Positions 12,547-51,962 of a stretch of 64,000 bases of DNA are shown in pieces. The stretch is from Planctomycetota bacterium (GTDB taxonomy: Bacteria > Planctomycetota > UBA1135), in NCBI GenBank assembly GCA_021776795.1, contig JAJFFC010000017.1:1-64000 (forward strand), written 5' to 3'. Every line of letters starts with the position of its first letter. Within the stretch, counting starts at the first letter, position 1. Under the pieces are notes generated by a model. It saw only the letters and a program-made list of their open reading frames with translations. It searched no databases and had not been told where the DNA came from. The position numbers and the translations under genes are program-made.

Positions 12547-12591
12547 ATCGGAGGTCCTACCTACGATGATGGCAGACTCCTGCCGCTCGTG

Positions 12592-12903: not shown

Positions 12904-12909
12904 GCCGCC

Positions 12910-12916
12910 TATGATA
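12910..12916. promoter_or_regulatory. Symmetric bidirectional -10 element (TATGATA)
   Basis: TATGAT (12910-12915, plus) and TATCAT (12911-12916, minus) overlap as the near-palindrome TATGATA. The plus box is 7 bases before the ATG at 12923 and the minus box 7 bases before the ATG at 12903, so the arrangement is exactly symmetric around 12913. It would drive two divergent leaderless messages from one -10 region. Confidence 0.5.
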
Positions 12917-12922
12917 GTGGCT

Positions 12923-14314
12923 ATGGCCCGCGCCCGTCGCCGCGAAAAACGCCACCAGGTGTTTGAGGCATTGCAAGCTCACTTGCTGTTGCCGGTGGGT
13001 AGCGCTTACGAACCTGCGTCAGTGCACCATGCTGCCGACATCGCCGATGTCATGTGGCTCGACCTCGAGCCCGAATCCGCGCATCGCCTGTTTCGGGAGA
13101 TGCCGATCGAATCGGCGGCCGAAGTCCTGGCCGAAGCCGAAGAGAAGCTCCAAGCCATCTTGCTCAGCGAAATGGAGCCGGAGCAAATCGGTTCGCTCTT
13201 GAATGAGCTTTCCGCAGACGACGCCACCGATATTCTCGAGCACTTGCCCGAACAACAACGGCTAGAGGCCATGTGCTTCATCAAGCCCGAAGATGCGGCA
13301 GACATTCGTCACCTTTCGGAGTACCCGCCGCACAGTGCTGGTGGTCTGATGACCACCGAGTTCCTCACCGCAGAGCCGGAAGAGAATGTCGGTGACATCC
13401 TGAAGCGCATCAAACGCGACGAAGGCATGGCGGAATCGATTCACGTGATTTTCGTGATTGATGACCTTGGCCGTTTGAAGGGTGTGATCTCGACTCGCGA
13501 ATTGCTCGAAGCGAGCATTCACGATTCGGTGGTGGAGATCATGATTCCCGACGTGATTTCGGCCAAGGTCGATGAAGATAAAGAAGACGTCGCCCACCGC
13601 CTGTTGCACTACAACCTATCCATGATTCCGGTGCTCGACCCGCGCGGCATCATTGTCGGTATTGTCACCGCCGATGACGCGCTCGAAGTCATGGAAGACG
13701 AAGGTTCCGAAGATGCGCTGCTCTTGGCTGGTGCTTCGGCGGCGTCGGAAGCAGGCGAGCCTTTGCTGACCAAGGTAGGTCACCGTGCCCCGATGTTGCT
13801 CATGCCCACCATTGCTGGCTTGGCAATTTCAAGCGTGATTGCGGCCTTCGGTTTGCCCGATGCCAATAGCCCCACTGTGACCGAATCCTCAGCGGTCATC
13901 AGTTTGATCGTGAGTTATGTACCACTGGCTTTGGGTATTGCCGGTACAGTCGGCATGCAGACCTCGGCCGTGTTGGTGCGTGGTTTTGCAGTTGGACAAA
14001 TCGTCCACGGCCGACGCATGGGCGTATTTATGGGTGAAGTCAAAGTGGGCATGTTGCTTGGTTTGCTAAGCGCTCTGGTCGCAGGCCCGGCCATGGCCCT
14101 ATTCACCGGCGATCTCGCCGTCGGCCTTAGCATGGGTTTGGCCCTCATGCTCGCCGCAGGATGGACCGCAATCACGGCAAGTAGCATTGCCATGGGCTCT
14201 GACGCCGTCGGCCTCGACCCTGCGCTGGTTTCTGGCCCGGTCATGATGGCCATCAGCGATTTATCCGGCACGGCGCTGTTTTTGGGTATCGCAAGTCTCA
14301 TCTTGCTTCCTTAA
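12923..14314 (+). CDS. mgtE: Magnesium transporter MgtE
   Basis: 463 residues from the ATG at 12923, preferred over in-frame starts further upstream because those overlap the -10 box and the divergent gene. Domain order is that of MgtE: N-terminal helical superhelix (about 15-130, with repeated AADI/ADDATDIL units), two CBS motifs (about 140-265), a connecting helix and five membrane helices (about 295-460). Conserved motifs AGTVGMQTSAVLVRGFA and GLDPALVSGPVM are present, the latter containing the pore-lining Asp of the family. It mediates magnesium-gated Mg2+ influx across the inner membrane. Confidence 0.93.
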   Translation: MARARRREKRHQVFEALQAHLLLPVGSAYEPASVHHAADIADVMWLDLEPESAHRLFREMPIESAAEVLAEAEEKLQAILLSEMEPEQIGSLLNELSADDATDILEHLPEQQRLEAMCFIKPEDAADIRHLSEYPPHSAGGLMTTEFLTAEPEENVGDILKRIKRDEGMAESIHVIFVIDDLGRLKGVISTRELLEASIHDSVVEIMIPDVISAKVDEDKEDVAHRLLHYNLSMIPVLDPRGIIVGIVTADDALEVMEDEGSEDALLLAGASAASEAGEPLLTKVGHRAPMLLMPTIAGLAISSVIAAFGLPDANSPTVTESSAVISLIVSYVPLALGIAGTVGMQTSAVLVRGFAVGQIVHGRRMGVFMGEVKVGMLLGLLSALVAGPAMALFTGDLAVGLSMGLALMLAAGWTAITASSIAMGSDAVGLDPALVSGPVMMAISDLSGTALFLGIASLILLP

Positions 14315-14347
14315 GCTGCATAGGGTGCCATCGCTCCCCCCGATGCC

Positions 14348-15466
14348 GTGACTCGCCGCCGCCGCAATTCTCTGCTTCTGCTAAGCCTTGGGCTAGCTGT
14401 TTGCTTGGCCGTGTATTGGGCTTTCCGCCCTTACCGCGTGGTTGGCGAATCGATGGAACCGAGTTTGGTCGTAGGTGATTGGTTGCGCATTCGGCGCGAG
14501 CTGCCCGAGCGTGATGAACTCGTCATCTTTCACGAACCGGATAGTGGCAAGCTTGGCGTAAAGCGCGTGGTCGGCATGCCTGGTGATCGCGTGCAACTTC
14601 TTGGCGGTGATGTCCTGCTCGACGGCAAGGTCTACCAACGCCCGCTGCACTCGGTGACCGATCTTGTGCCCTTGCTCGATGAAGTTGGCGCCGCCGCCGC
14701 CGATCGCATGCACTTCGAGGGCGACGCCATGGAAGTCACTGCAGAAGGATGGTCGCTCAATGGAAACGGCCGCGCCTTTTTATCCACGCCTCCGAACGGT
14801 GGTTATCTCTTGCGCGGAGATTTGCGCAGCGCGGTGGAACCGGCCAGCGATTTGGGCATTGAGGTCGAGTACCAGCTCAACTCGGCGGATTCTTCCTTGG
14901 AGTTGATTCTGCGCAAAGGGCAATCGACTTTCACCGCATCTTTGGTTGGCGGCGGCCACGAACTCATGGTCTATCGCCAAGATGGCGCGGGCACCGAACA
15001 AGAGTTGCTGCTGCAGCGCGAGCTCATGCATGAAGAGGGCGCACCAGACATCGCCGTGCACCGCAACGGCACCGCCTTCTTCACCATTGCCAACCAGGGC
15101 CTAACCGTAGTGCTCAACGGCGAGGTCTTTCTCGATCACCTGCCCTTCGATCCGGTCAAACCGATCAGCCTGACCGAAGTCCCTGCCGACTTCCCGCAAG
15201 TCGAACACGCTGGCATCGGCGGCCGTGGCATGGTCGAGATCGGGCGCATTCGTCTCGGCCGCGATGTTCTGCGCCAAAGCGGCGGAACCTTCGCCACCGG
15301 CATGGGGTTACAGCTCGCGGACGGCCAGTACTTTCTTCTTGGTGATCACCCTGCAGCCAGCCGCGACTCTCGCCATTATGGAGCCGTGTCCGACGACCTC
15401 ATCGTCGGCACAGTCGCCGCTCGTTGGTGGCCCACGGGCTGGACTTTGCGTGGATGGGCCGAGTGA
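14348..15466 (+). CDS. lepB: Signal peptidase I with large inserted domain
   Basis: 372 residues from a GTG. One membrane helix (8-26) precedes the S26 catalytic region: nucleophile Ser35 in GESMEPSL and general-base Lys72 in GVKRVVGMPGD. The C-terminal signature LLGDHPAASRDSRHYG (about 330-345) is also intact. Between these, residues about 100-315 form an inserted beta-rich, lectin-like/LamG-like region absent from the 200-320-residue family norm in this form. The enzyme should remove signal peptides at the outer face of the inner membrane. It overlaps the ECF sigma gene by 4 bases (GTGA). Confidence 0.85.
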   Translation: MTRRRRNSLLLLSLGLAVCLAVYWAFRPYRVVGESMEPSLVVGDWLRIRRELPERDELVIFHEPDSGKLGVKRVVGMPGDRVQLLGGDVLLDGKVYQRPLHSVTDLVPLLDEVGAAAADRMHFEGDAMEVTAEGWSLNGNGRAFLSTPPNGGYLLRGDLRSAVEPASDLGIEVEYQLNSADSSLELILRKGQSTFTASLVGGGHELMVYRQDGAGTEQELLLQRELMHEEGAPDIAVHRNGTAFFTIANQGLTVVLNGEVFLDHLPFDPVKPISLTEVPADFPQVEHAGIGGRGMVEIGRIRLGRDVLRQSGGTFATGMGLQLADGQYFLLGDHPAASRDSRHYGAVSDDLIVGTVAARWWPTGWTLRGWAE

Positions 15467-38107: not shown

Positions 38108-39202
38108 ATGAGTGACACAGACCACAGCCTGCGCGGGCCATTCAAACCGCGCGTTGCCAGCAAGAAGCATGACAAGTGCAAGCTTCCCGATGTCCTTGCT
38201 TTCTTCCGCCAGCTGAACACGCTGTTCAGTGCCGGTACTCCTCTGTACGAGTCGATTTTGATCTCGGCCGATCAAACCGAATCGAAGGGGCTGGAACAGG
38301 TCATCAATGAAGTGGCGCGGGCGATTAGCTCTGGCTCCACATTGTCCGAAGCCTTTGGCGAACACCCCAAAGTGTTCAAAGAGGAGTGGTGTCAAATCAT
38401 TCGTGGCGGTGAGATCTCCGGTAACCTCGGCGAAACCTTGGTCAACCTGTCTAAGCAAATCGACGAAGTGCAAAAGTTTCGTAGCAAGGTCATTGGCTCA
38501 TTGTTCTACCCAGGCATGATTTTCTTGGTGTCGGTGGTTGCCGTGACCGTCATGCTGGTCTTGGTGGTGCCGACCTTCCAGCAAATGTTCAAGGACTTCG
38601 GCAAGGAGTTGCCTGGGCCGACGCAGACTCTGATTGGCATTTCGGAATACCTTCGCGAAAGTGGCTTCAAGATCTTGATGTTCGTTAGTGGCGGTTACTT
38701 CATCTTCCGGCGTTGGATTAAGACCTCGACCGGCCGCATCGCCTGGACGCGCTTCCTGATGTCGATTCCCATCATTGGCGATCTCATGGTGCAGTCCGCC
38801 ATGCAGCGCTTTGCGCTCAACGTATCCACGCTCCTTGGTGCAGGCGTTCCGATGCTCGAATCGATTGATGCCATGAAAGGCATCTACAACTACAACCCGA
38901 TTTACCAACGCTCGATGAAACAAGTCGCGCAGTTTGTCGGCCGGGGTGGCAACCTTTCCGACGGCATGGAATCCACGGGCATCTTTACTGTCTTTATGGT
39001 CAACATGTCTCGCATTGGTGAGCAGTCCGGAACTTTGCCGGAAGTGCTGCAAGAGCTTGCCGATTTCTATCGCACCAAAGTCGAAGTGTTTGCTGGTCGT
39101 ATTGCCAGTCAAATCGAAACGATTTTGATCATCGTCATGAGCATCGTGGTTGCCTCGGTGCTGATCTCGCTCTATCTCCCCCTGTTTGAGATGTCCGCAT
39201 GA
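38108..39202 (+). CDS. gspF: Type II secretion / type IV pilus inner-membrane platform protein
   Basis: 364 residues with two GspF repeats: FFRQLNTLFSAGTPLYESI at the N-terminus and MQRFALNVSTLLGAGVPMLE in the second half, each followed by a helical domain and membrane helices (about 135-160, 185-205, 335-360). This protein anchors the assembly ATPase and receives pilin subunits. It starts 2 bases after gspE and overlaps the secretin start by 4 bases. Confidence 0.95.
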   Translation: MSDTDHSLRGPFKPRVASKKHDKCKLPDVLAFFRQLNTLFSAGTPLYESILISADQTESKGLEQVINEVARAISSGSTLSEAFGEHPKVFKEEWCQIIRGGEISGNLGETLVNLSKQIDEVQKFRSKVIGSLFYPGMIFLVSVVAVTVMLVLVVPTFQQMFKDFGKELPGPTQTLIGISEYLRESGFKILMFVSGGYFIFRRWIKTSTGRIAWTRFLMSIPIIGDLMVQSAMQRFALNVSTLLGAGVPMLESIDAMKGIYNYNPIYQRSMKQVAQFVGRGGNLSDGMESTGIFTVFMVNMSRIGEQSGTLPEVLQELADFYRTKVEVFAGRIASQIETILIIVMSIVVASVLISLYLPLFEMSA

Positions 39203-40881
39203 GTTCTCTCCTTAAACTGTGCTTGGCTTCCTTGCTCTGCCTGGTGGCGATTTCGTCAACAGCGCAGGGTCAAGACCTGTCCGAGCTCCTTAACGCACCC
39301 TTAGAGGGCGCGGCCGCAAATGGCCAAGACCCCAGCACGCCAACAGCCAGTGGTGAAGGCTTCAGCAGGAACCAAGAAGGGGGCCTGGAGTTTCACGCTC
39401 GCAACCTGGACATTCATGAAGTGTTTCAGCAGCTGCGCACTCTGACTCGCACCAACATCGTGGTCGATGCCAGTGTCACAGCTACTTTCAGCGGCGACCT
39501 TTACGATTTATCCATCGACGAAGCGGTCGAGATGATTTGTTTGTCGACCGGACTGAGCTCCACCCGCAAAGGCAACTACCTCTTTATTGAAGAGACGCAA
39601 ATGTTGACTCGAGTGTTTGTGTTGCATCACAGCCGTGCAGAAGACATCAAGGAGCTCATCGAAAGTATGTTAGGCGAGGGCGAGAAAGTCACCGCCTCGG
39701 CAGCCTCCGAAGTTGGCATTGAAAGCGATGACACTGGCTCTGGCGGAGACGCCTACGCGAGCTCCGACGTCGTCTTTGTGCGTGCCATGCCAGAGAGCAT
39801 GGCGGAAATCGAACTCATGATTGATGAGGTCGACACCGCGCCGAAGCAGGTCATGATTGAAGCGACCATCCTCACCGCGGACATGATCTACAACAAGCAA
39901 CTCGGCGTCGACATCTCTGCGCTGCAGAGCTTGAACTTCAACGACGTCAACGCCAGTTCAAATGGTTTCTCGCTGAACTACGGCGATCTCACCGCAGATC
40001 AAATGTCGAACTCGGTGCATACCTTGGGCACCGATTTCGCCGGCGATGTCGCGGATGGTGGGCTCAACTTTGGTTTCTTTCGCGGTAGCGTTGCCGGCTT
40101 CGTACGCGCACTCCAGGAAGTCACCAACGCTCAGGTGCTGGCGCAGCCCAAGGTCATGGCGCTGAACAAGCAAAAGGGCGAAGTCCTTCTCGGACGCCGT
40201 GATGGCTATCTGACCACCACCGTGACCGAGACCGGCACCACCCAGCAGGTGGAGTATCTCGAAACTGGTACCCGTCTCTTGTTCCGCCCCTTCATCGGCG
40301 AGAACGGTCTCATCCGCCTGGAAGTTCACCCTGAGGACTCCGAGGGTGGCTTGAACTCCCTGGGACTTCCCTTCGAAACCACTGCCGAACTCACCACCAA
40401 CATCCTGGTGAAATCCGGCCAAACCGTCCTCATTGGCGGCTTGTACCGCGAAAAAGACCGCACGGTCGAGAAAGGCGTGCCGGGCGCCAAAGATGTTCCG
40501 TTTTTTGGCAATCTTTTTGGTTCAGACGAGGACACCATCAACCGAGAAGAGGTGTTAGTTCTCTTGACCCCGACCCTAATTGATGCCGATACCTATGGAG
40601 AGGAGTTTGCATCGACAGATCCCGTCGCCGTCGGCGAGGGGGCAGATGGACGCAGCGCCCTTCTAGGAAACATGTACCTACGAACCGCCAAAGCCCTTGC
40701 CCTTGAGGGAAGCTACGGAAGCGCAATGATTCTGTTGCAGGATTCCGGCAAGGCCGACGACGACGACGCGGAAGCTCGTGGCGTCCGTGAGCGCGTACAG
40801 AAGGGCCTGGTCCCGCCATCCAGCGGCGCCACGGTCGATCAACGCATTCTCGATGACCTGCTCCAAGGAACGGGTCCCTAA
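39199..40881 (+). CDS. gspD: Outer-membrane secretin
   Basis: 560 residues with a signal peptide (1-24). An N0/STN-like domain (about 57-130, FHARNLDIHEVFQQL) and an N1-type domain (about 135-215) precede the secretin barrel: VLAQPKVMALNKQKGEVLLG, the RLLFRPFIGENGLIRLEV strand, and the VKSGQTVLIGGL...DVPFFGNLF...VLLTPTLI signature (each partial). A C-terminal helical tail of about 75 residues follows the barrel. It forms the outer-membrane channel of the machine. Confidence 0.95.
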   Translation: MSSLLKLCLASLLCLVAISSTAQGQDLSELLNAPLEGAAANGQDPSTPTASGEGFSRNQEGGLEFHARNLDIHEVFQQLRTLTRTNIVVDASVTATFSGDLYDLSIDEAVEMICLSTGLSSTRKGNYLFIEETQMLTRVFVLHHSRAEDIKELIESMLGEGEKVTASAASEVGIESDDTGSGGDAYASSDVVFVRAMPESMAEIELMIDEVDTAPKQVMIEATILTADMIYNKQLGVDISALQSLNFNDVNASSNGFSLNYGDLTADQMSNSVHTLGTDFAGDVADGGLNFGFFRGSVAGFVRALQEVTNAQVLAQPKVMALNKQKGEVLLGRRDGYLTTTVTETGTTQQVEYLETGTRLLFRPFIGENGLIRLEVHPEDSEGGLNSLGLPFETTAELTTNILVKSGQTVLIGGLYREKDRTVEKGVPGAKDVPFFGNLFGSDEDTINREEVLVLLTPTLIDADTYGEEFASTDPVAVGEGADGRSALLGNMYLRTAKALALEGSYGSAMILLQDSGKADDDDAEARGVRERVQKGLVPPSSGATVDQRILDDLLQGTGP

Positions 40882-40889
40882 ACCACCCG

Positions 40890-41990
40890 ATGAAGTCTTG
40901 GCTCCCACTCTTGACCCTCATGCTGCTGCCCATGGCAACGGCATGTTCGAGTGCGGAATCTTCTGATTTCAGCGGCCCGGTCAGTGGTGCCTACGGAGAG
41001 CAGCGAGACCGCACCTTCCTAGCTCAAGCCCGTCGCAAGCTGGCGGCGGGAGACACTCGCGGCGCGCGCGCCGATTTGGCGCAGCTGTCGTCGGAAGCCC
41101 GTGCAGCACCTCTGCACCTATTGCTTGCCGAAGCGGCCTTACGTGACGGCGACCCCTACACCGCCCAGGAAGAAGTTGCCGCCGCTGCGAATCTCGATCC
41201 CGACAACGCGCAAATCGACATGCTGCGCGGCATGATTGCTGAGTCCACGGGCAATTGGGTCGACGCGAGTCGCGCTTACGAGTTGGCTTCTTCGAAAGAT
41301 CCAAACCAAACTGAATCGGTGCTCGCCAATGTTCGCGTGTTGCACGCCATGGGCGATGCCGTCCGCGCCGCAGCCTACCTGGAGCGCCAGCTCGGCATGC
41401 ACCCGCGGTCCTTCGATCTGCAACTCGCTGCAGGCCGCACCTATATGGCTTTGGAAAGTTGGCAAGATGCCGTTGGTAGTTTGTCTTCGGCTTTGGATCT
41501 GCGTCCACAAGAAGACGTCGTGCGCTTGGATTTAGTGCTCGCTCTGTCTCTTGGCGGTTCCCACAAGGAAGCTCTAGATCGTTCCGGCGATTTACGACCT
41601 GAGGACATGAGTGCCACGGTGCAGTTGGCGCTTGGTCGTTCCGCCTTGCTCACAGGAGAAAGCTCGAGGGCAATCACCCTGCTCAGCAGTTATGTGCATG
41701 TTGCAGACCAAGACAGCGACGCGCAAATGGATCTGGCGCGGGCGTACTACTTGAACCAGGACATGGACCTTGCGCTTGCCGCACTGGGGCGTGTGCTGAA
41801 GGCATCGCCACAGAACCCGGCCGCCTTTACCTTGCTCGGCCATGTTCGGCTGAAATCCGGCCAGAAAGACTTGGCACGTGCGGCCTATGAGCGCGCGATT
41901 TACGCAGGCGGCGATGCCCTGACCCTGACCCGTTTGATGGAAGCCATCGACCGCGGCCAGTTTGATGAACAGGAGATTGGCGAACGATGA
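40890..41990 (+). CDS. TPR-repeat lipoprotein of the pilus/secretion operon
   Basis: 366 residues. The leader ends in a lipobox (MATAC, Cys19-20 region, then SSAESS), followed by about eight TPR repeats (ARRKLAAGDTRGARADLAQL, ASRAYELASSKDPNQTESVL). It matches PilF/PilW-type pilotins that help secretin assembly, although it has more repeats. Its stop overlaps the next start (ATGA). Confidence 0.82.
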   Translation: MKSWLPLLTLMLLPMATACSSAESSDFSGPVSGAYGEQRDRTFLAQARRKLAAGDTRGARADLAQLSSEARAAPLHLLLAEAALRDGDPYTAQEEVAAAANLDPDNAQIDMLRGMIAESTGNWVDASRAYELASSKDPNQTESVLANVRVLHAMGDAVRAAAYLERQLGMHPRSFDLQLAAGRTYMALESWQDAVGSLSSALDLRPQEDVVRLDLVLALSLGGSHKEALDRSGDLRPEDMSATVQLALGRSALLTGESSRAITLLSSYVHVADQDSDAQMDLARAYYLNQDMDLALAALGRVLKASPQNPAAFTLLGHVRLKSGQKDLARAAYERAIYAGGDALTLTRLMEAIDRGQFDEQEIGER

Positions 41991-42400
41991 AGTGCGCACG
42001 AGCAGGCTTCACGATGCTCGAGTTGATGGTCGTGGTGGTCATCATGGGCGTTCTAGCCACGATGGCCATTCCCAAGGCTGGAAAGACGGTGGAGAACACC
42101 CGCGTCGATCAGGCTGCGGCTGAGTTACATAGCATTTGGGGCGCACAGCGCCGCTATCGCATGCAGCACCAGGACTTTGCCCCTAATCTCAAAACGCTGG
42201 TCGATGGCGGCTACGTGCAAAAGGTCCTTTTGGAGAAGAAGGAACCCTTTCGATTTGCGCTACAAGCCACGCGCAGTGGTGGTTTACGCATGACCTCAAC
42301 CCGTACGGGAGCTGGTTGGAGCGGGGAGCTCGTACTCGACGAAATGGGAGAGCTCAAAGGAAGCGTGCGCAACGGAGGCGGCGATGAAGTTAAGCCATAG
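41987..42400 (+). CDS. Minor pseudopilin 1 (GspH/G-like)
   Basis: 137 residues with a short leader MKCARAG, then FTMLE (+1 to +5) and the helix LMVVVVIMGVLATMA. The globular part is small and includes a central HSIWGAQRRYRMQH helix. It is the first of four overlapping minor-pseudopilin genes, which probably form the tip or priming complex. Confidence 0.9.
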   Translation: MKCARAGFTMLELMVVVVIMGVLATMAIPKAGKTVENTRVDQAAAELHSIWGAQRRYRMQHQDFAPNLKTLVDGGYVQKVLLEKKEPFRFALQATRSGGLRMTSTRTGAGWSGELVLDEMGELKGSVRNGGGDEVKP

Positions 42401-42767
42401 ATTTCCCGCCAACTCTCGCTTGCAGAAAGGCTTTACCATGATTGAAGTCATGGTCGCTGTGGTCCTTCTCAACCTATTAGTGGTTGGCATCGTCAAGCTC
42501 TTTATTGGGCAGAACGCCATGGTCGAGGATCTCGAAGGTTGGGCCGAAGGGGAGCCAGTGCTCTACATTGCGCAAGACGCCAACCCGGTGGCGCGGCAGC
42601 TGGGGATTCCAGCGCAGCTCACGCCCACGCGACCACCCCTACTTCCCAAAAGTGTGAGCCCTACGCCCTACCTGTTGGAAGTCCAGAACTTGCAGCGCAT
42701 GCCCGAAGCCGACGCCCTCATCGTGGTGGTGAAGCAAACCGAGAACGAGGCCTACGATGAAGAGTAA
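42384..42767 (+). CDS. Minor pseudopilin 2 (GspI/PilV-like)
   Basis: 127 residues, starting inside the end of the previous gene. A 16-residue leader ending QKG precedes FTMIE and the helix VMVAVVLLNLLVVGIVKLF, the I/V-type pattern. The globular domain is short and proline-rich. Confidence 0.87.
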   Translation: MKLSHRFPANSRLQKGFTMIEVMVAVVLLNLLVVGIVKLFIGQNAMVEDLEGWAEGEPVLYIAQDANPVARQLGIPAQLTPTRPPLLPKSVSPTPYLLEVQNLQRMPEADALIVVVKQTENEAYDEE

Positions 42768-43248
42768 GTTTCGTTCTTCCCGCAAAGTATCCGGACATAC
42801 CCTGGTCGAAATGATGGTCGCAGTCACTGTACTCACCATTTTTATGGGTATGGTGGCAAAGGCCCAGCAGCCATTCACTCTCATGGTGTATGACCTGCAA
42901 GATCGCGCTAGAGCCAGCAGTGAACTCCACCTTGCCGTAGATTGGCTGACCCGTGATCTCGGCGCAGCGGAAACCCTCACTCGCGAGGGTTCGAGCCGCT
43001 TGTTGATTCGGCGCGAAGCGGCCGCTGCGATTGCTGATGGCGTGCGCGGCGCTGACCTCGGCCTTCGCTACTCCTTGGAAGACGGCATGTTGGTGCGCGA
43101 AGATCTCAATCGCAAGCAAGAGTTTGTGGTCGCCGCTCACCTCGTCGCTTTTGGTGTGGCACGCACGGGAAGTGAACTTAAAATCGGCATCATCGATGGT
43201 CGCGAACCCGAACAGCACCAAGTTACCCTGGTTTGGAGAGACCGATGA
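42757..43248 (+). CDS. Minor pseudopilin 3 (GspJ/PilW-like)
   Basis: 163 residues overlapping the previous gene by 11 bases. Leader ending VSG precedes HTLVE, with Glu at +5, then the helix MMVAVTVLTIFMGMVAKA. The domain LAVDWLTRDLGAAETLT is typical of J/W-type minor pilins. Confidence 0.87.
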   Translation: MKSKFRSSRKVSGHTLVEMMVAVTVLTIFMGMVAKAQQPFTLMVYDLQDRARASSELHLAVDWLTRDLGAAETLTREGSSRLLIRREAAAAIADGVRGADLGLRYSLEDGMLVREDLNRKQEFVVAAHLVAFGVARTGSELKIGIIDGREPEQHQVTLVWRDR

Positions 43249-43631
43249 AGCCGTCGAGCCCGAAGCAAAACAGCCAGCAGGCTGGACAAGCTCTATTGTT
43301 GGTGATGATCATCTCCACCTTCATCATGGGAATCTGGGCGGTGTCGTTTCGAATGACTCGCGACGCCATCGACACCGAAGCTTTCCATAATGACCGCAGT
43401 TTCTATGAAAACCGGATTGTGAAGGCTGCGAGTCATGCTGGAAACCTGCTGGAGCAAGACCAGCCCGGAACTTCGCGCTACCGCTTTGTCTACGCCGGTC
43501 GAGATTCGCGCGGCGCCTTCCGCACTTTAGTGGAGATTCGCCGCCAGGGCGGTGACCGATTTGAGATTCGCGCTCAGGCCGTCGAAGGCACGGTTGGCCG
43601 GGGGTTACCCGAGAATCCAACAAGCTTCTAA
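43245..43631 (+). CDS. Minor pseudopilin 4 (GspK/PilX-like, short)
   Basis: 128 residues from the ATG at 43245 (ATGA overlap). The leader ends QQAG before QALLLVMIISTFIM; position +5 is Leu instead of Glu, as in GspK/PilX-type tip subunits. At 128 residues it is much shorter than GspK (about 320) and closer to PilX. It ends the secretion/pilus gene cluster. Confidence 0.8.
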   Translation: MKPSSPKQNSQQAGQALLLVMIISTFIMGIWAVSFRMTRDAIDTEAFHNDRSFYENRIVKAASHAGNLLEQDQPGTSRYRFVYAGRDSRGAFRTLVEIRRQGGDRFEIRAQAVEGTVGRGLPENPTSF

Positions 43632-43697: not shown

Positions 43698-44555
43698 ATG
43701 AGCGCACCCAAATCTGCCTTTTCCGCCTTGAGCGGTACCCCTGCGCCAAGCCAGGAACATGGCCCAATCCCGCATTTTGTTGCGGAATCCTCGGCGTACC
43801 GAGTGCGCTTTGCCCAGGGCGCGCAGGACCTCCAGGCGATTTGCCGCTTGCGTTACGAAGTGTTCAACCTTGAGCTGGGCGAAGGCTTGGAAGAAGCGCG
43901 GCAAAATGGCATCGATCTCGATGACTTTGACCACCAGTGTCAACACTTGATGGTAGAGACCATTCCCGCATTCGGGGAAGATGTTGAGGTGGTGGGAACT
44001 TACCGGCTGCAAACGGCGGAGAGCGCCATGACCGGTTGCGGTTTTTATTCCGCAGGCGAGTTTCAGTTACAAACCTTGCCCGATGAGCTTCTCAATCACG
44101 CAATTGAACTTGGCCGTGCCTGTGTGCGCGCGGATCACCGCAATCGCCGAGTCTTGTTTTTGCTGTGGCGAGGACTCGCCGGTTATGTGCTGTGGCACCG
44201 CAAGCGTTGGTTCTTTGGTTGCAACTCATTGAACTGTGAATCCGAGTTAGAAGGTTGGCGCATGACTCAGTACCTGAAAGAGCATGACCACCTCCACCCT
44301 GAGTTGTATGTCGAGCCACAGCCGGGGTATCTTTGTGCGGCGAGCGCACCTTTTCAGACATCGCCCACGGCTCATTCTCCCGCCGCACTTCCGTTGGAAA
44401 TCCCGCCCCTGTTTGGGATTTACCTGCGCTATGGCGCAAAGATTTGCAGTCCTCCCGCGCACGACCGTTTGTTTCACACCATCGACTTCTTCACCGTGGT
44501 CGACCTCGATCAAATGGACGAACGAACCTTCAACAATTTCGCCGCTGACCGATGA
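43698..44555 (+). CDS. olsB: Ornithine lipid N-acyltransferase (OlsB-like)
   Basis: 285 residues of the GNAT-related family that transfers a 3-hydroxyacyl group from acyl carrier protein to ornithine, making lyso-ornithine lipid. Family motifs seen: ICRLRYEVFNLELGEG, DDFDHQCQHLMVE, VVGTYRLQT, GFYSAGEFQL, AIELGRACV and FLLWRGLAGYV. A TAGGAT box at 43648-43653 lies 44 bases upstream. It overlaps the olsA-like gene by 4 bases, the classical OlsB-OlsA pair for phosphate-free membrane lipids. Confidence 0.85.
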   Translation: MSAPKSAFSALSGTPAPSQEHGPIPHFVAESSAYRVRFAQGAQDLQAICRLRYEVFNLELGEGLEEARQNGIDLDDFDHQCQHLMVETIPAFGEDVEVVGTYRLQTAESAMTGCGFYSAGEFQLQTLPDELLNHAIELGRACVRADHRNRRVLFLLWRGLAGYVLWHRKRWFFGCNSLNCESELEGWRMTQYLKEHDHLHPELYVEPQPGYLCAASAPFQTSPTAHSPAALPLEIPPLFGIYLRYGAKICSPPAHDRLFHTIDFFTVVDLDQMDERTFNNFAADR

Positions 44556-45376
44556 AGCGTTTTATCGCAGCCATTCGAATTGCATTGCGCCTGGTATTCC
44601 TGGCCGTAGCCTTGCTGTTGTTGGTTTTGTCGTGGTTGCTTCCCTTATTGATTAGGCCTTTTTCGGCGCGTGCGGCCTCGGCACTACGCGTGCATCAATT
44701 GGGCGTATGGGCGCGCGCCAGCCTGGCCATCATGGGCATTCGCGTGACTCAAGAGGGCCCCTCTCCCCAGGCGCCATTCTTGTTAGTGAGTAATCATCTC
44801 AGCTATCTCGACATCATGGTGTTGTGGAGCCGCGTCGACGCTTACTTTTTGGCGAAGTCTGAACTCGGTTCTTGGTTCCTGTTGGGGCCTCTGATCCGCG
44901 CCGCGGGCACCTTGTTTATTAATCGCAATCGCCGCGCCGGTGTGGTCCCCGCGATTGCTGCAGTGAAAGACAAGTTAGCGCTTGGCAACGGAGTCATCTT
45001 CTTCCCGGAGGGTACCTCTAGTTCAGGTGGAAGCTTGTTGCCTTTTAAGTCAAGCCTGTTCGCGGTGGCCGCGGATACGGATCTTCCCGTTCATGTCACA
45101 TGCTTGCATTACGCCACGACTGCGCCGGACCATCCCGTGGAATTAGAAGTCGCGTGGTGGGGAGACATGGCCTTCGGTGGGCATTTCCTGAATCTTTTGA
45201 GAGTTCCGCGAGTGAATGTTCGCGTGCGCTTCGCCGCGGAGCCGGTACGCCATGGCGACCGCAAACAGTTGGCGGCGGAAACGCAGAAATGCATGGAAGA
45301 GTTGTTTGAGCCCATGCACGACTACAGCCGGGTTGAGCCACAGCAAGAGGGTTCCCTGCCTTTGGCGCCGACCTAA
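44552..45376 (+). CDS. olsA: 1-acyl-glycerol-phosphate acyltransferase family (OlsA-like)
   Basis: 274 residues with an N-terminal membrane helix (about 10-33). Acyltransferase motifs: NHLSYLD (H-x4-D box, here HLSYLD), GTLFINRNRR, FPEGTSSSGGSLLPFKSSLF and the VTCLHY strand. It should add the second, ester-linked acyl chain to lyso-ornithine lipid. Its coupling to olsB supports this over phosphatidic-acid synthesis. Confidence 0.85.
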   Translation: MKRFIAAIRIALRLVFLAVALLLLVLSWLLPLLIRPFSARAASALRVHQLGVWARASLAIMGIRVTQEGPSPQAPFLLVSNHLSYLDIMVLWSRVDAYFLAKSELGSWFLLGPLIRAAGTLFINRNRRAGVVPAIAAVKDKLALGNGVIFFPEGTSSSGGSLLPFKSSLFAVAADTDLPVHVTCLHYATTAPDHPVELEVAWWGDMAFGGHFLNLLRVPRVNVRVRFAAEPVRHGDRKQLAAETQKCMEELFEPMHDYSRVEPQQEGSLPLAPT

Positions 45377-45381
45377 GAGGC

Positions 45382-47910
45382 ATGAAGCGCCACCTGTTGC
45401 TGCTATATTTGGCGCTGCTCGTGTGTAGCAACGTCGTGCGCTTTCTAAACGACGACCCCCCGCCACTGCAGGCAGGCGAGCAGGAATTTGTCACCCAGGA
45501 AGGCCGGCGTGTGGTGTATCGCTTGCGCGAATCCAAGACTCCAGGGGCCACCACCGTTTTGCTGCTACACGGCAGCCCTGGCAATCTGCAGGATTTTGAT
45601 TCTCTGGCCGACGCCCTCCCTCAGAGGTTTCAGGTCCTGGTTCCTGACCTCCCGGGTTTCGGCGCTTCTTGGGCGCGATTAGATGACTACAGCACGGCCG
45701 CTCATGCCGAGGATGTGCTGCAACTTTTAGAGCACCTCGAAATCGACCAGGTGCAAGTGGTTGGCTTTTCGATGGGCGGAGGGGTGGCTCTAGAAATGGC
45801 ACACCGCGAAGCGCAGACCATTGCTTCTTTGAGCATGGTGGGGGCGATTGGCGTGCAGGAGTTGGAGCTCTTTGGCAGTTATGGGCTGAACCATGCGGTA
45901 CATGGTGGTCAGTTGGCATTGATCCAGGCCGGGACATGGTTGTTACCTCACTTTGGCAAGCTCGACCGCTTTCCGCTCAACCTAGCCTATGCGCGTAACT
46001 TTTTTGATACCGATCAGCGCCCTTACCGCGAGTACCTGCAAGAGTTCACAGCGCCGTCGATGGTGGTGCATGGCCGCGAAGATTTTTTAGTTCCGCCTGA
46101 AGTGGCAACCGAGCATCATCGCCTGCTTCCGCAAAGTGAATTGCATTGGATCGATGGGAGCCATTTTTTACTGTGGACCCAACCCCAAGAGGTCGCGCAA
46201 CTCCTGAGTGATTTCTTTGCTCGTGTGCAGCAGGGAGAAGCGCTCACTCGCGCCGATGCTCCAGCAAGTGCTCATGCGCGCGCGGCGGAGGCCTTTGACC
46301 CCAGTTCGGTCCCACCCTTCACCGGGCCGGCGCTGTTGGTGGCCATGCTCCTTTTGGCCTTGGCGACCCTGGTAAGCGAAGACCTTGCCTGCATCGCGAC
46401 TGGTCTATTAGTGGCTCAAGGTCGCATTGCCTTGTTCCCCGGCGCGATGGCTTGTTTTCTCGGCATCTTCATCGGCGACATGCTGCTGTTTTTGGCCGGC
46501 CGAAAATTTGGGCGCGCAGCGATTGCGCGCCGGCCCTTCCGCTGGATGATTACGCCGGGCGCGGTGGAGCGAGCTTCCTTGTGGTTCCGTCGCCGCGGGC
46601 CATGGGTGATTTTTATCTCGCGCTTTATGCCTGGCCTGCGCCTGCCGACCTACTTTGCCGCTGGTGTTCTACGCACGCGGGTGCTGTGGTTTGCCTTCTA
46701 CTTCGCCCTAGCCGGTTTGCTGTGGACGCCGATTCTGGTTTACCTCTCCAGCCGTCTCGGCCACAGCATGGAAGACCTTCTGGACCAAGCCAATCGCTTT
46801 GGCCCACTTGGCATCATCGCAGTCTTGGTGTTCTTTGGCGCCGTGTGGAAACTGCTTTTGCCGCTCGCCACCTGGCGCGGACGACGAGACCTCGTCGGGC
46901 GTTGGCGTCGCGCCCGCCATTGGGAGTACTGGCCGAGGTGGCGTGTTTATGGCCCGCTCATTCCCTTCCTGTGGCGACAGGCGCGAAAGTCCGGCGGCTG
47001 GCGCGTGGTGACTGCAGCCAACCCTGGCATCGAAGGTGGCGGCTTGGCGGGGGAGTCCAAGACCAAACTCCTGAAGGCTCTAGACGGTCCGGAAATCGCC
47101 ACTTTCTGTGCGCTTTCCGAGGGCGGCAAAGAGCGCTGGCCGCAGATCGCCGCGTGGATGAAAGCGCGAGCCATGGATTTTCCTGTGGTGTTGAAGCCCG
47201 ATGCCGGCGACCGCGGCTTCGGTGTGGCCATCGTGCATCACGAGCAAGAAGCCCAAGCCTGGTTAGAAGAACACACTCGTCCGGCGATGGCCCAGGAGTA
47301 TATTTCCGGCCTGGAGTTTGGCGTGAGTTGGCAGCGTGATCCGCTCGACACCTCTGCACAGGCCGGCCACATTCCGTCGCTTGCACGCAAAGAGTTTCCG
47401 GCGGTCGTGGGCGATGGCAAGCACGACCTGGAACACCTAATCCTGGCGCATCCTCGACATGTGGCCCAGGCCGCGCCTTTGCTCGAAGCCAATGCCGCTC
47501 GCTCCTTTGAAGTTCCCGCAGAAGGCGAGCTTGTCGCCCTGAGCCAACTCGGCACGCACAGTCGTGGGACAGCTTTTTTCGATGCCCAGGAGTACATCAC
47601 CCCCGAACTGGAACGAGCGATTCGCCGCATCGGTTGCCGCCTCGAGGGCTTTTATCTCGGCCGCTTTGACCTCCGGGTTCCCTCGCTCAAGGATTTAGAA
47701 GCGGGGCGCAACCTCAAGATCATCGAGCTCAATGGTCTGACTGGGGAACCGGCGCATATGTACGACCCCAAATACAGTGTGCGCGAGGCGCGCCGATGCC
47801 TGCGCGAGCTGTGGGCGCAGGCATTTCGGATTGGCGCGGGGCAACATGGCGCCGGCGCACCCTTGCCGACTTGGCGGGAACTTTGGCACTGGTTCCAACG
47901 CTCCAGGTGA
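45382..47910 (+). CDS. Three-domain fusion: alpha/beta-hydrolase, DedA/VTT membrane domain, ATP-grasp
   Basis: 842 residues. After an N-terminal helix (4-21), residues about 40-285 are an alpha/beta-hydrolase: oxyanion loop LLLHGSPGN, nucleophile Ser130 in GFSMGG, acid Asp234 in HGREDFLVPP, His261 in GSHFLLW. Residues about 315-500 are a DedA/VTT domain: Glu333-Asp334, GIFIGDMLLFLAGRKFG and the FISRFMPGLRLPTYFAAG motif with Arg414. Residues about 540-820 are an ATP-grasp ligase: VVLKPDAGDRGFG (Lys605), QEYISGLEFG, IIELNGLTGE. It follows olsA by 5 bases, suggesting an activity on lipid or lipid-linked amino acid. The start is preceded by an AGAGG Shine-Dalgarno. Confidence 0.88.
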   Translation: MKRHLLLLYLALLVCSNVVRFLNDDPPPLQAGEQEFVTQEGRRVVYRLRESKTPGATTVLLLHGSPGNLQDFDSLADALPQRFQVLVPDLPGFGASWARLDDYSTAAHAEDVLQLLEHLEIDQVQVVGFSMGGGVALEMAHREAQTIASLSMVGAIGVQELELFGSYGLNHAVHGGQLALIQAGTWLLPHFGKLDRFPLNLAYARNFFDTDQRPYREYLQEFTAPSMVVHGREDFLVPPEVATEHHRLLPQSELHWIDGSHFLLWTQPQEVAQLLSDFFARVQQGEALTRADAPASAHARAAEAFDPSSVPPFTGPALLVAMLLLALATLVSEDLACIATGLLVAQGRIALFPGAMACFLGIFIGDMLLFLAGRKFGRAAIARRPFRWMITPGAVERASLWFRRRGPWVIFISRFMPGLRLPTYFAAGVLRTRVLWFAFYFALAGLLWTPILVYLSSRLGHSMEDLLDQANRFGPLGIIAVLVFFGAVWKLLLPLATWRGRRDLVGRWRRARHWEYWPRWRVYGPLIPFLWRQARKSGGWRVVTAANPGIEGGGLAGESKTKLLKALDGPEIATFCALSEGGKERWPQIAAWMKARAMDFPVVLKPDAGDRGFGVAIVHHEQEAQAWLEEHTRPAMAQEYISGLEFGVSWQRDPLDTSAQAGHIPSLARKEFPAVVGDGKHDLEHLILAHPRHVAQAAPLLEANAARSFEVPAEGELVALSQLGTHSRGTAFFDAQEYITPELERAIRRIGCRLEGFYLGRFDLRVPSLKDLEAGRNLKIIELNGLTGEPAHMYDPKYSVREARRCLRELWAQAFRIGAGQHGAGAPLPTWRELWHWFQRSR

Positions 47911-47925: not shown

Positions 47926-48285
47926 ATGAGTTTGCGCGTCTGGTTCAACCCGAATTGTTCAAAGTGCCGAAACCTCAAAGCTTTGTTAGAGGAGCGAGGC
48001 ATCGAGGCGGAGTACCGTCACTACATGGACCAGGGGCCCAGCTTGCAAGAGCTCGAAGGCTTGGTGCAGAAATTGACCGCGGCGGGCACTCCCGCCGACC
48101 AAGTTCTACCATTACTGTTGCGCAGTAAAGACCCTGCTCAAGATGGCTTCAATCTTGCCGACCAGGCGTCGTGTTTGGCCACCATTGTGGCGGATCCAGC
48201 GCAGCTACAGCGCCCGATTGTCGAGAGCGAGCAAGGCGCGGTGGTTGCCCGACCGCCTGAGTTAGTCCACGATTTTTTGGGTTAG
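47926..48285 (+). CDS. ArsC/Spx-family thioredoxin-fold protein
   Basis: 119 residues. NPNCSKCRNLKALLEERGI gives an active-site Cys11 and a second Cys14, and the C-terminus has the family pattern QRPIVES...VVARPPELV. Arsenate reductases of this family use glutaredoxin; others are regulators or thiol oxidoreductases. No ars genes are adjacent, so arsenate reduction is not established. Its last 4 bases overlap the convergent aspartoacylase gene. Confidence 0.82.
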   Translation: MSLRVWFNPNCSKCRNLKALLEERGIEAEYRHYMDQGPSLQELEGLVQKLTAAGTPADQVLPLLLRSKDPAQDGFNLADQASCLATIVADPAQLQRPIVESEQGAVVARPPELVHDFLG

Positions 48286-49466
48286 AGCTCGAAGCGATCT
48301 GGACCTTCGAGGTCGAAGCGGCGACGACGCACAATCATGTGTTGGTCATAGATGCGCCGCTTGCGCAAGCCCAGCAGGTGGAATAGCTCTACCGTGCCCC
48401 AGCGCGCCACTTTGCGATTGACGCGTAGTGCATTGGGGTCTCCAGGAACCTTGTTCACGCCAGGAAGCCAATGGGCAAAGCGCACGAGATTCATGCGCCG
48501 CATCCAGCGCGAAACGGCAAGCCATATCGGGTGAATGTCGAGAGCGAGAAAAAACCCGTCGTCGCCAAGGCCTTGATATAGCGGCAACAAAATACGCGAC
48601 CGATAGTTAGCCGCAATCTCGCCGTTGCGGTCATCGGCAACGACTTCGCCGGACTTTAGCGGTCGGAAGTTGCGGTAGCCAGGGCGCATTTGAAAACCAT
48701 GCTCTGCGACAATGGCGTGTCGATAACGAATGCCAAGCCAATGCGGAAGATTGTGGCGGCTTTCTTTCAAGAGTGCTTTGGCGCGCGCCACTTCGGGCAA
48801 GGATTTCTCGCGCAAACAACCAGCGCCAATCAGGGCGCGCCAGATTGCGGCTTCATGGTGATCGATAGCTTCTTCGCTGTCATGTTGCCCACCCTCAAAT
48901 CCGAGTGTGACCAAACCATGTTGATTGAGGAACTCAAGGAGCGCGCCATCGATCTGTTCTTCCAGGCCAAGAATGATGGGCACAGGGAAGGCGCGGGCGA
49001 AGCGACGGTTGCGAATGGTATCGCCGATGCAAGCAAAGGGTTCGCCGTCGGCTGAGCTCGTGTGCAGGTCGACAAAGAATGCGCCCTGCTTGGCGTCGTG
49101 AAGAAGTTCGCGCAGCAGGAAAAGGATTTCCTTTTGCTCGCGCGTTTCGGCGCGCCCGTCTTCGAGTGTGTCGAGCTCGGCCATGCGCTCGGGCATCCAA
49201 GCGCGATTAAGATCGACGTCGAGAAAGCGCTCTTTGGTCTTCAGTGCGCGCAGATTTCCACTGATGCCAACAAGTCTTCCGCGAAACACCGGGCGCTCGC
49301 GCTCCAGTACCGTGAAAACCCGTTCGAGCGCAGCAATACCTGCGGGTTCGTTGCCATGAATGCCGCCCATAACCAGCACCAATGCACCAGGCTCAGCGCC
49401 CTGGAAATCTCCGAGAGTGCGCGGCAGGTGGCTCGTTGCCGAGGCTGTAGCGGAAGGGGCAGTCAT
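48282..49466 (-). CDS. Succinylglutamate desuccinylase/aspartoacylase family zinc hydrolase
   Basis: 394 residues. Zinc site: GGIHGNEPAG (HxxE) and FFVDLHTSS (second His); substrate-binding VDLNRAW lies between them. The C-terminal 90 residues (from about DIHPIWLAVSRW) are extra relative to the usual 320-residue enzymes. Members cleave N-acyl amino acids. It is downstream of the GCS2-CBS gene on the same strand with a 32-base gap, so the two likely form an operon. Confidence 0.83.
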   Translation of the reverse strand: MTAPSATASATSHLPRTLGDFQGAEPGALVLVMGGIHGNEPAGIAALERVFTVLERERPVFRGRLVGISGNLRALKTKERFLDVDLNRAWMPERMAELDTLEDGRAETREQKEILFLLRELLHDAKQGAFFVDLHTSSADGEPFACIGDTIRNRRFARAFPVPIILGLEEQIDGALLEFLNQHGLVTLGFEGGQHDSEEAIDHHEAAIWRALIGAGCLREKSLPEVARAKALLKESRHNLPHWLGIRYRHAIVAEHGFQMRPGYRNFRPLKSGEVVADDRNGEIAANYRSRILLPLYQGLGDDGFFLALDIHPIWLAVSRWMRRMNLVRFAHWLPGVNKVPGDPNALRVNRKVARWGTVELFHLLGLRKRRIYDQHMIVRRRRFDLEGPDRFEL

Positions 49467-49498: not shown

Positions 49499-51430
49499 TT
49501 ATCGTGATTCGCTGGGATCTTCCTTGAGCTTTTGCTCCAGAAGTCGGGCAGCAATTCCCATCAGGCTGTCCTCCGTGACTAGGCCGACCAAGCGGCGGTC
49601 GCCGTCGACGACCGGCAGACAGGATATCTTCTCGCGCCGCATTAGGGCGATGGCATCTAGGGTGCGCGTGTCCTGGCTTACGCAGATGGGTTCCCGGTCC
49701 ATGACATCGCTTACCGGCAGTGCGTTGTCGCCGGCGTCACGGTGGAAGGCAAAGCGCATCAGGGCGCGGTGGGTCAGCAGGCCAACGAGATGATTGGCCT
49801 CGTCTTCGACCGGAATATGGCGCAAATGCCACCAGTCCATCATGTTCGCCGCAAGTTCGACCAGCTCGGTTTCGCGTACGGTAAACAAGTCGGTATTCAT
49901 GAGCGAAGACACGCGCTCATATTGATCGCGCCAGCTAATCGATACATCGCAGGTTTCTGCGAGGGGCCAATCGGCTAATGGCGTTTCCGTTTCTTGATTG
50001 CGAATGGTGCAGTTCACCAAGGCCGTCACCGTTTCCGCAACCGAACTATTCTTGCGCATTTGTGCGGCGGAGAACAGCATCCAACGTGCTCCAGTGCGCT
50101 CTTTCTTGAGGCGATCACGAATCACGTCGAGCAGGCGATGACTATCGGCTTCGTCGACGCCACTGGCATCGAGTCCGCGTTGCGCAATCGGCAGCAAGTG
50201 GTCCAGCAGCAGTTGATGCACCGGATAACTGCGGCCATCGATCCAAAGCATTTGTGCATCCATGCCCAGGCGTGCAGCGGCAAGAAGATTGTTCTTGGCT
50301 TCGTCGAAATCCATCAACTCGCGTGGGTCACCAATCTCGATGGCAGCCCCCTGCATGAGCCCAATCCACAACGCGGCATTCGCCACTTCATCAATCACGG
50401 TAGGGCCGGACGGCAACAAGCGATTCTCGATGCGCAAATGGGCTTTGCCATCGGAGATGCCATAACATGCCCGGTTCCAACGGTAGACGGTGCCGGTGTG
50501 CAGACGCAGGGCATCGAGCTTTGGTGCGCGCCCGGATTCCAGGGCTTCAAAGGGGTCTTCATAAGACTCGGCGCCAATCAAGGTGCGGAAGCGGCCGATG
50601 TCTTCGCGGTAGAGCTCGAGCACCGAGTCTTTCACCCAGGAAGTGCCAAAGCTCACTCGTGGTTGTAGCTCACGTCGAGGAGTGGAGTCTCCGCGGGTGT
50701 CTACCGATTGTTGGAAAAGCGCCAAGCGCGTTTCACGCCATAGCCGTTTCGAAAACAGTACTGGCGAGTTGACGGCGCAAGCCATAACCGGCCCACTCAC
50801 TAACTGCGCCAAATTGTAGTATTTTGGAAACCGATCGGCGGGAACTTGAAGATGCACCTGATAAGAGGTGTTGCAAGCTTCGAGCATAATGTTGTCATGC
50901 GTGAGTTGCAGATCATCGATGCCCTTGATGCGCAACCGGAACGGACCACCGCGCAGCCGAGCGAGGGCATCGTTCAGCGCAAAGTAGCGCGGGTTCGGGG
51001 TCATGTTGTCGAGCGAGAGGTCTTCCGGCTCGAGCGTCGGCAGGATACCGACCATGACCACATCGCCGCCGAGCTGACGCGCGGCTGCCCTGGCTTTGTG
51101 CAGGAGCGCTAAGTTCTGCCGCTCTAGCGCGGCGAAGCAATCCCCACGCAAATCCAGTGGGTCGAGGTTGAACTCTAGGTTGAACTGGGCGAGCTCCGGG
51201 GTGAAGTGATCATCCTGCAGAATCTCGAGCATGCGTCCGCCGAGATTGGCTGGGCGCATGCCGCGGTCGACCAAGAACATTTCCTGTTCGGCGCCAATGC
51301 GCTGGCGGTCAGTCTCGAGAAGACCCTGCTTCTCCATATGCTCGAGTGCCTGCACATCGCGCAGGAGAGCGCGCGAAAAAAGGCGCAGCTGCTCTTCGTC
51401 TCGATAGGAGGTTACGTTGAAATCACCCAT
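49499..51430 (-). CDS. Glutamate-cysteine-ligase-like (GCS2) domain fused to CBS pair
   Basis: 643 residues from the ATG at 51430; a longer open frame upstream would overlap the promoter and the divergent marR gene. Residues about 25-470 are a GCS2-type amidoligase (IGAEQEMFLVD with acidic metal ligands, LEFNLDPLDLRG, HDNIMLEACNTSYQVHLQV in part). Residues about 510-640 are two CBS motifs (HIPVEDEANHLVGLLTHRAL, ISCLPVVDGDRRLVGLVTEDS in part), which usually bind adenine nucleotides. It should form an amide bond with glutamate or a similar amino acid, probably under nucleotide control. Confidence 0.85.
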   Translation of the reverse strand: MGDFNVTSYRDEEQLRLFSRALLRDVQALEHMEKQGLLETDRQRIGAEQEMFLVDRGMRPANLGGRMLEILQDDHFTPELAQFNLEFNLDPLDLRGDCFAALERQNLALLHKARAAARQLGGDVVMVGILPTLEPEDLSLDNMTPNPRYFALNDALARLRGGPFRLRIKGIDDLQLTHDNIMLEACNTSYQVHLQVPADRFPKYYNLAQLVSGPVMACAVNSPVLFSKRLWRETRLALFQQSVDTRGDSTPRRELQPRVSFGTSWVKDSVLELYREDIGRFRTLIGAESYEDPFEALESGRAPKLDALRLHTGTVYRWNRACYGISDGKAHLRIENRLLPSGPTVIDEVANAALWIGLMQGAAIEIGDPRELMDFDEAKNNLLAAARLGMDAQMLWIDGRSYPVHQLLLDHLLPIAQRGLDASGVDEADSHRLLDVIRDRLKKERTGARWMLFSAAQMRKNSSVAETVTALVNCTIRNQETETPLADWPLAETCDVSISWRDQYERVSSLMNTDLFTVRETELVELAANMMDWWHLRHIPVEDEANHLVGLLTHRALMRFAFHRDAGDNALPVSDVMDREPICVSQDTRTLDAIALMRREKISCLPVVDGDRRLVGLVTEDSLMGIAARLLEQKLKEDPSESR

Positions 51431-51437
51431 TGGCATT

Positions 51438-51443
51438 ATCCTA
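51438..51443 (-). promoter_or_regulatory. -10 box of the GCS2-CBS gene
   Basis: TAGGAT on the minus strand ends 7 bases before the ATG at 51430, predicting transcription from the A of the start codon. No Shine-Dalgarno is present. Confidence 0.45.
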
Positions 51444-51509
51444 GCGAGGCGCGGCAATTGAACTTCCGTAAACGCAGTAAATGGTCTCACGGACAAGCTG
51501 GCAAAGCCG

Positions 51510-51515
51510 TATACT
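51510..51515 (+). promoter_or_regulatory. -10 box of the marR-like gene
   Basis: TATACT lies 9 bases before the ATG at 51525, in the 94-base divergent region shared with the GCS2-CBS gene, so a MarR-type repressor could control both. Confidence 0.4.
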
Positions 51516-51524
51516 TTGCCTTCT

Positions 51525-51962
51525 ATGGTCAAACAAATCCCCGATTCCGCATCGCGTGCAGCGCACATCAGATTGTTGGAGGCCCACGAAGTTATCGATA
51601 GTGAGTTCCAGACCCTGTTCCGCGACCACGGCATTACCGGAACGGTGTTCAATGCCATGCGCGCGCTCATCCAGGGCCCGGCCGAAGGCATGCGTATCCG
51701 CGACGTCGGCTGCCATTTGATCAAACGCGTCCCAGACATCACCCGCCTCATGGACCGCATGCAGCGCGACGGCTACGTCACCCGAGTCACCAATAGGGCC
51801 GACCGCCGGTCGGTTCTGGTGCGCCTCACGGCCAAGGGCAAGCGCAAGTGCGAATCGCTTTATCCGAGCATGACCAAGCTCCATCGCGAGCAGTTCTCCC
51901 ACATGTCCGAGCGCGAGCTGAAGCAACTCGAGAAGCTTTTAGCCAAGGCCATGGCTCGTTAG
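51525..51962 (+). CDS. MarR-family transcriptional regulator
   Basis: 145 residues. Winged-helix DNA-binding region at about 50-105: MRIRDVGCHLIKRVPDITRLMDRM as recognition helix region (partial) and the wing GYVTRVTNRADRRSVLVRLTAKG with the conserved DRR(S)V turn. Flanking helices form the dimer interface. Target and ligand are unknown; the divergent GCS2-CBS gene and the following membrane protein gene are the nearest candidates. Confidence 0.9.
   Translation: MVKQIPDSASRAAHIRLLEAHEVIDSEFQTLFRDHGITGTVFNAMRALIQGPAEGMRIRDVGCHLIKRVPDITRLMDRMQRDGYVTRVTNRADRRSVLVRLTAKGKRKCESLYPSMTKLHREQFSHMSERELKQLEKLLAKAMAR

Follow-up and report, generated by a model that had tools for sequence, protein, structure and literature searches.

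Directly behind olsB- and olsA-like genes, one uninterrupted reading frame encodes a protein in which an alpha/beta-hydrolase, a DedA/VTT membrane domain and an ATP-grasp ligase are fused. The fusion is widespread and not peculiar to the genome in which we found it, and the family is, as far as tested, uncharacterised. We consider it fairly probable that the protein modifies an aminolipid and translocates it, with an ornithine-type lipid as the putative substrate.

The fusion gene and its neighbours

The window is the whole stretch of DNA analysed, 64,000 nucleotides of a planctomycete contig. The frame at 45382-47910 (+) translates into 842 aa with the terminal codon as its sole stop, and translation, domain searches and fold searches all agree with the first-pass annotation, which had proposed one 842-residue protein with these three parts. 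Pfam detects Abhydrolase_1 (7e-31) and VTT (6e-17). The former match together with a Ser-Asp-His triad places the protein in the alpha/beta-hydrolase superfamily, and the latter, at 62.7 bits against a cut-off of 33.9, among the DedA/VTT proteins, where the best NCBIfam models are UptA. The RimK-like ATP-grasp match in Pfam is weak and below the curated cut-off; membership of the ATP-grasp superfamily is given by the fold search (E 4.5e-12) and the invariant K605, E782 and N784. The features of the locus are:

43698..44555 (+): olsB-like N-acyltransferase, aminolipid step 1 (Pfam PF13444; best NCBIfam model OlsB)
44552..45376 (+): olsA-like O-acyltransferase, aminolipid step 2 (Pfam PF01553; best NCBIfam model OlsA)
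45382..47910 (+): triple-domain fusion of anchor, alpha/beta-hydrolase, DedA/VTT and ATP-grasp (translation, Pfam, alignment, AF2)
45388..45447 (+): hydrophobic N-terminal anchor helix, aa 3-22, predicted N-in (hydrophobicity and charge, AF2)
45478..46239 (+): alpha/beta-hydrolase, aa 33-286, predicted periplasmic (Pfam, alignment, nearest folds)
45769-45771, 46081-46083 and 46162-46164 (+): hydrolase triad codons Ser130, Asp234 and His261 (alignment)
46318..46872 (+): DedA/VTT membrane domain, aa 313-497 (Pfam, hydrophobicity and charge, alignment)
46381-46383 and 46621-46641 (+): DedA/VTT key residues, D334 and the R414-R420 motif (alignment with relatives and YghB)
46924..47907 (+): ATP-grasp ligase, aa 515-842, predicted cytosolic (model, profile and fold search, alignment)
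47194-47196 and 47725-47736 (+): ATP-grasp key residues, Lys605 and ELNG (alignment)
47926..48285 (+): ArsC/Spx-like thioredoxin-fold protein, 15 bases 3' of the fusion (domain searches, relatives' loci)

The olsB and olsA genes overlap by 4 bases, and the olsA stop ends at 45376, leaving, as first described, a gap of 5 bases before the fusion ATG at 45382, with a GAGG ribosome-binding-like stretch. In NCBIfam the OlsB model scores 135 bits (curated cut-off 320) and the OlsA model 143 bits (curated cut-off 300). Because both matches are below these cut-offs, we take ornithine as the likely, though not certain, head amino acid of the lipid predicted for this locus.

The ArsC/Spx-like neighbour is kept beside several family members. 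The window also holds an AstE/aspartoacylase-like amide hydrolase (48282-49466, -) and a GCS2-like carboxylate-amine ligase with two CBS domains (49499-51760, -), whose frame probably starts about 105 codons downstream of the longest-ORF start. Genes of both kinds adjoin the fusion in further family members (L021-L023, L035, L036), and they are perhaps a second amide-forming and amide-cleaving pair. Just upstream of olsB lie secretin-like and pseudopilin-like genes of the type II secretion/type IV pilus kind (39199-43631), with homologues upstream also in L022 and L030. The same genome has, on contig C23, a 939-aa frame for a large protein whose ATP-grasp domain is weakly similar.

We counted the key residues in 41 aligned relatives, a few of which lack the hydrolase, so that denominators are smaller there. 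The annotated hydrolase triad proved near-invariant (S130 36/38, D234 36/38, H261 36/36), and the ATP-grasp lysine and ELNG motif were confirmed, with K605, E782, N784 and G785 each kept in 41/41. Within the DedA/VTT domain E333 (41/41), D334 (40/41), R414 (40/41) and R420 (41/41) are kept. The essential residues of E. coli YghB are Glu39, Asp51, Arg130 and Arg136 (PMC10127716); in our alignment D334 corresponds to Asp51, and R414 and R420 of the R-x-x-P-G-x-R motif to Arg130 and Arg136, which substantiates that motif. Glu39, the other essential acid, aligns to a hydrophobic position (~M322) in the fusion family. Thus E333-D334 is a family-specific pair, and its description as the canonical DedA acidic pair stands for D334 and is otherwise rejected. 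With three of four residues kept, the domain falls outside the four-residue definition of the COG0586 UndP flippase (UptA).

Structure prediction, which the first-pass annotation had proposed as a check, gave AF2 models with a mean pLDDT of 91 and a pTM of 0.67 for the whole protein and a pLDDT of 95 for the ATP-grasp domain. The nearest PDB folds of the ATP-grasp are cyanophycin synthetase 1, GshAB and D-Ala-D-Ala ligases (Ddl), in agreement with the profile search, while those of the hydrolase are esterases and lipases led by ABHD6, with membrane phospholipase A 6i8w in the first five. From hydrophobicity and charge distribution (19 K/R vs 38 D/E in the hydrolase segment, 12 K/R vs 1 D/E in the 56-aa VTT loop), the predicted topology has the N-terminus inside and the hydrolase periplasmic, with the ATP-grasp and the long VTT loop cytosolic. 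Such a layout agrees with the 3 transmembrane and 2 reentrant helices of the DedA core (PMC10127716).

Distribution and linkage to aminolipid genes

Fourteen full-length fusions from the same family or order align end to end at 45-56% identity, and VTT-ATP-grasp proteins without the hydrolase are present in relatives L035, L036, L038 and L039. Scanning named genomes with the ATP-grasp alignment gave at least 571 relatives; the best 80 comprise at least 42 triple fusions, 30 VTT-ATP-grasp proteins and 8 ATP-grasps alone, some of the latter two kinds being cut by contig ends. Triple fusions were found in at least seven phyla (Planctomycetota, Acidobacteriota, Verrucomicrobiota, Bacteroidota, Balneolota, Krumholzibacteriota and Calditrichota). 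The caution that an assembly error or frameshift might have joined separate genes has practically no chance of being right and is ruled out, as the same full-length fusion, open and free of internal stops, recurs in many independent genomes and assemblies.

A quick tree shows the fusion state in clusters, with at least five changes on well-supported branches; a hydrolase gained or lost at least five times is not essential to the core function. In one planctomycete genus with a GH3 gene (L131, L132, L133) we saw a fusion of hydrolase and ATP-grasp, adjoining a radical-SAM protein, in which the segment between the two domains is not identified as VTT, and in L107 a true cyanophycin synthetase (11704-14505, -) lies a few genes from the fusion.

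Wherever flanks were readable in the family and order loci, the fusion or the VTT-ATP-grasp core adjoins olsB/olsA or lies within a few genes of them. OlsB/OlsA-like genes lie within 5 kb in 46 of the best 80 named relatives, many contigs being short. Kangiella, IMCC1989, UBA7415 and an Opitutaceae genome have a stand-alone ATP-grasp immediately adjacent to olsB-olsA, the order in gammaproteobacteria (L098, L109, L122) and Opitutaceae (L118) being ATP-grasp, olsB, olsA; olsB follows it directly in Variovorax (L043), and in Bryobacterales and relatives VTT-ATP-grasp is near an OlsF-type gene. No olsBA was found within ~6 kb of the ATP-grasp in Paracoccus, Azospirillum, Salinivibrio and Komagataeibacter plasmids. 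A separate observation is that some OlsB proteins (L051:3652-5511, L070:2613-5204, L062:10280-12097) carry an N-terminal extension of ~350-600 aa without a family match in NCBIfam.

In a phylum sample of 199 genomes, OlsB or OlsF is present in 15/20 genomes with the ATP-grasp vs 13/179 others (Fisher 3e-11, uncorrected for relatedness), and the ATP-grasp is present in every one of the 11 genomes whose OlsB match is strong (E < 1e-80). Conserved neighbourhood and co-occurrence together tie the ATP-grasp to the aminolipid (OlsBA) pathway. The five genomes with the ATP-grasp and neither OlsB nor OlsF all have a GH3-like gene, four of them being one genus and the five thus about two independent cases; GH3 is found in 64/199 of the sample. 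The GH3 family includes OlsH, which catalyses the first step of the third OL pathway, described in a planctomycete (PMC12493201). The GH3 loci were heterogeneous, with no conserved OlsI-like neighbour and, one weak match excepted, no close hydrolase homologue, and the GH3 gene as an OL marker is suggestive only.

Two further genes form a recurrent cross-phylum set with ATP-grasp and olsBA (L050, L091, L109, L044 and about 30 others). One, in 33 ATP-grasp loci, encodes an NRDE/TANGO2-like protein whose Cys2 is invariant, a trait of Ntn enzymes; the other, in 30, encodes a DinB-like protein that conserves histidines. With a single exception for each, they are on the same strand and no more than two genes away. 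The window locus has neither partner, and a single-sequence search of its own genome, a weak one with an approximate DinB query, found none. Their presence in other lineages suggests further processing of the lipid product there.

Proposed function

We propose that the fusion protein would act downstream of OlsB and OlsA in the same aminolipid pathway, combining synthase, flippase and hydrolase. Its ATP-grasp, facing the cytosol, would phosphorylate a carboxylate and hand it to an amine, yielding an amide; the likeliest course would be activation of the alpha-carboxylate of an ornithine-type lipid and addition of a small amine, either an amino acid or taurine, the latter by the example of cerilipin. 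The DedA/VTT domain would then move the product between leaflets, and the membrane-anchored periplasmic hydrolase might trim or turn over the lipid, at an acyl ester or the head group, as AcvB does with MprF/LpiA products. Amide extension, translocation and trimming are proposed because the anatomy repeats the MprF/LpiA-AcvB arrangement with unrelated parts. The lipid so made, moved and trimmed is probably an undescribed modified form of ornithine-type lipids. Modification and translocation of an amino-acid lipid had been suggested at first sight, and this direction is well supported, as the ATP-grasp clusters with OlsB/OlsA/OlsF even when unfused and has amino-acid-ligase folds, while we infer the substrate, the amine added, the flipping and its direction, and the hydrolase target.

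The ATP-grasp of cyanophycin synthetase, GshB and Ddl activate the carboxylate of the acceptor chain, with a free amino acid as the nucleophile. We prefer the alpha-carboxyl as the site because these nearest ligases phosphorylate the acceptor carboxylate, and amidation of the lipid carboxylate by the ATP-grasp is held tentatively, at somewhat less than an even chance. The same OlsB/OlsA/OlsF linkage would also serve the other polarity, where a free amino acid is activated and joined to the delta-amine of ornithine lipid, giving more positive charge as with MprF; despite this precedent (PMC13197417), it is on the unlikely side, as the nearest folds work the opposite way.

Taurine as the amine is a guess, and an unlikely one, with no evidence singling it out. 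An ornithine-taurine lipid was reportedly described in 1976. Such a lipid, cerilipin, is known from Gluconobacter (PMC4484230). The acetic acid bacterium Komagataeibacter carries the ATP-grasp, with no annotated taurine gene and no recognised olsBA beside it.

Some observations speak against our main reading. Undecaprenyl phosphate is the cargo of COG0586-type DedA domains, of whose four key residues the fusion retains three; several ATP-grasp relatives lack olsBA within ~6 kb; the hydrolase has been gained or lost at least five times; and four of the five GH3-bearing exceptions belong to one genus. One rival has undecaprenyl phosphate as the cargo of the VTT domain, an envelope component with no relation to aminolipids as the target of the ATP-grasp and hydrolase, and shared regulation as the sole reason for the olsBA linkage. 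UptA as the best NCBIfam models and the retained D334, R414 and R420 would agree with this, but the acid equivalent to Glu39 is lost, and the ATP-grasp remains linked to OlsB/OlsA where no VTT is fused to it, and co-occurs with OlsB/OlsF at genome level; we judge it quite unlikely. Highly unlikely is a remodelling or degradative module, with the hydrolase as an OlsI-type acyltransferase or deacylase and the ATP-grasp re-ligating the products. In the planctomycete OlsHI pathway the O-acyltransferase is OlsI, which has an alpha/beta-hydrolase fold (PMC12493201), and the nearest hydrolase folds include the lipid deacylases ABHD6 and 6i8w; against it, the same operon already holds OlsA, the hydrolase is predicted periplasmic, away from acyl-ACP, and the GH3 loci gave only the one weak hydrolase match.

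Aminolipid modification plus translocation thus stays our preferred reading. A wider proposal, which falls just short of an even chance, is a widespread undescribed class of amide-extended aminolipids, made by the ATP-grasp and exported by DedA, whose gene set in many phyla would include the DinB-like and NRDE/TANGO2-like Ntn proteins, as a convergent counterpart of MprF for phosphorus-free lipids. To our knowledge no head-group ligase is known for ornithine-type lipids, and the family offers a testable candidate across many poorly cultured phyla. The substrates of DedA proteins are mostly open; the family links these proteins to a specific lipid pathway, and a single synthase-flippase-hydrolase protein would allow direct assay of DedA lipid specificity.

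Comparison with known systems

The first-pass statement that no described enzyme has this architecture holds for the open-access literature and family libraries searched (subscription journals and InterPro/CDART lying outside this scope), where no such protein was found described. The open-access literature also gave no description of an enzyme for DedA with ATP-grasp, for ornithine lipid with a flippase or for taurine lipid, and ornithine lipid and ATP-grasp appear together only in a review citing an ATP-grasp paper. We found no gene for cerilipin reported in the literature searched (PMC4484230). The OlsBA, OlsF and OlsHI aminolipid pathways share an operon or genome with the fusion or its ATP-grasp, and for these the same literature describes no head-group ligase.

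ABHD6 and membrane phospholipase A (7ots, 6i8w) have a hydrolase fold like that of the fusion and, like it, an N-terminal membrane anchor; the fusion hydrolase differs in being joined to VTT and ATP-grasp. With UptA/YghB the VTT domain shares the reentrant-helix layout and the equivalents of Asp51, Arg130 and Arg136, and it differs in the hydrophobic Glu39 equivalent and the two fused enzymes. The ATP-grasp of cyanophycin synthetase 1 (7wae) is the best fold match and among the best profile matches, with the lysine and E-x-N kept, at 18% identity and a TM-score of 0.57 on the query. Unlike that enzyme the fusion has no Mur-ligase part and is tied to a membrane domain, and by Pfam the domain set of a cyanophycin synthetase (Cyanophycin_syn N-domain, ATP-grasp and Mur ligase) is absent.

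MprF/LpiA holds a cytosolic head-group enzyme and a flippase in one protein, with the periplasmic alpha/beta-hydrolase AcvB/AtvA encoded alongside (PMC13197417), an arrangement which the fusion resembles in its predicted cytosolic head-group enzyme, membrane flippase and periplasmic hydrolase. MprF uses aminoacyl-tRNA and an unrelated flippase domain and its lipid is PG, whereas the fusion has ATP-grasp and DedA with the hydrolase also fused, and an ornithine-type aminolipid is predicted for it. Families of the MprF flippase and synthase domains are absent among the Pfam matches and the NCBIfam matches listed, which places the protein outside MprF. On our analysis the fusion is best read as a non-homologous counterpart of MprF plus AcvB, rather than as an MprF member.
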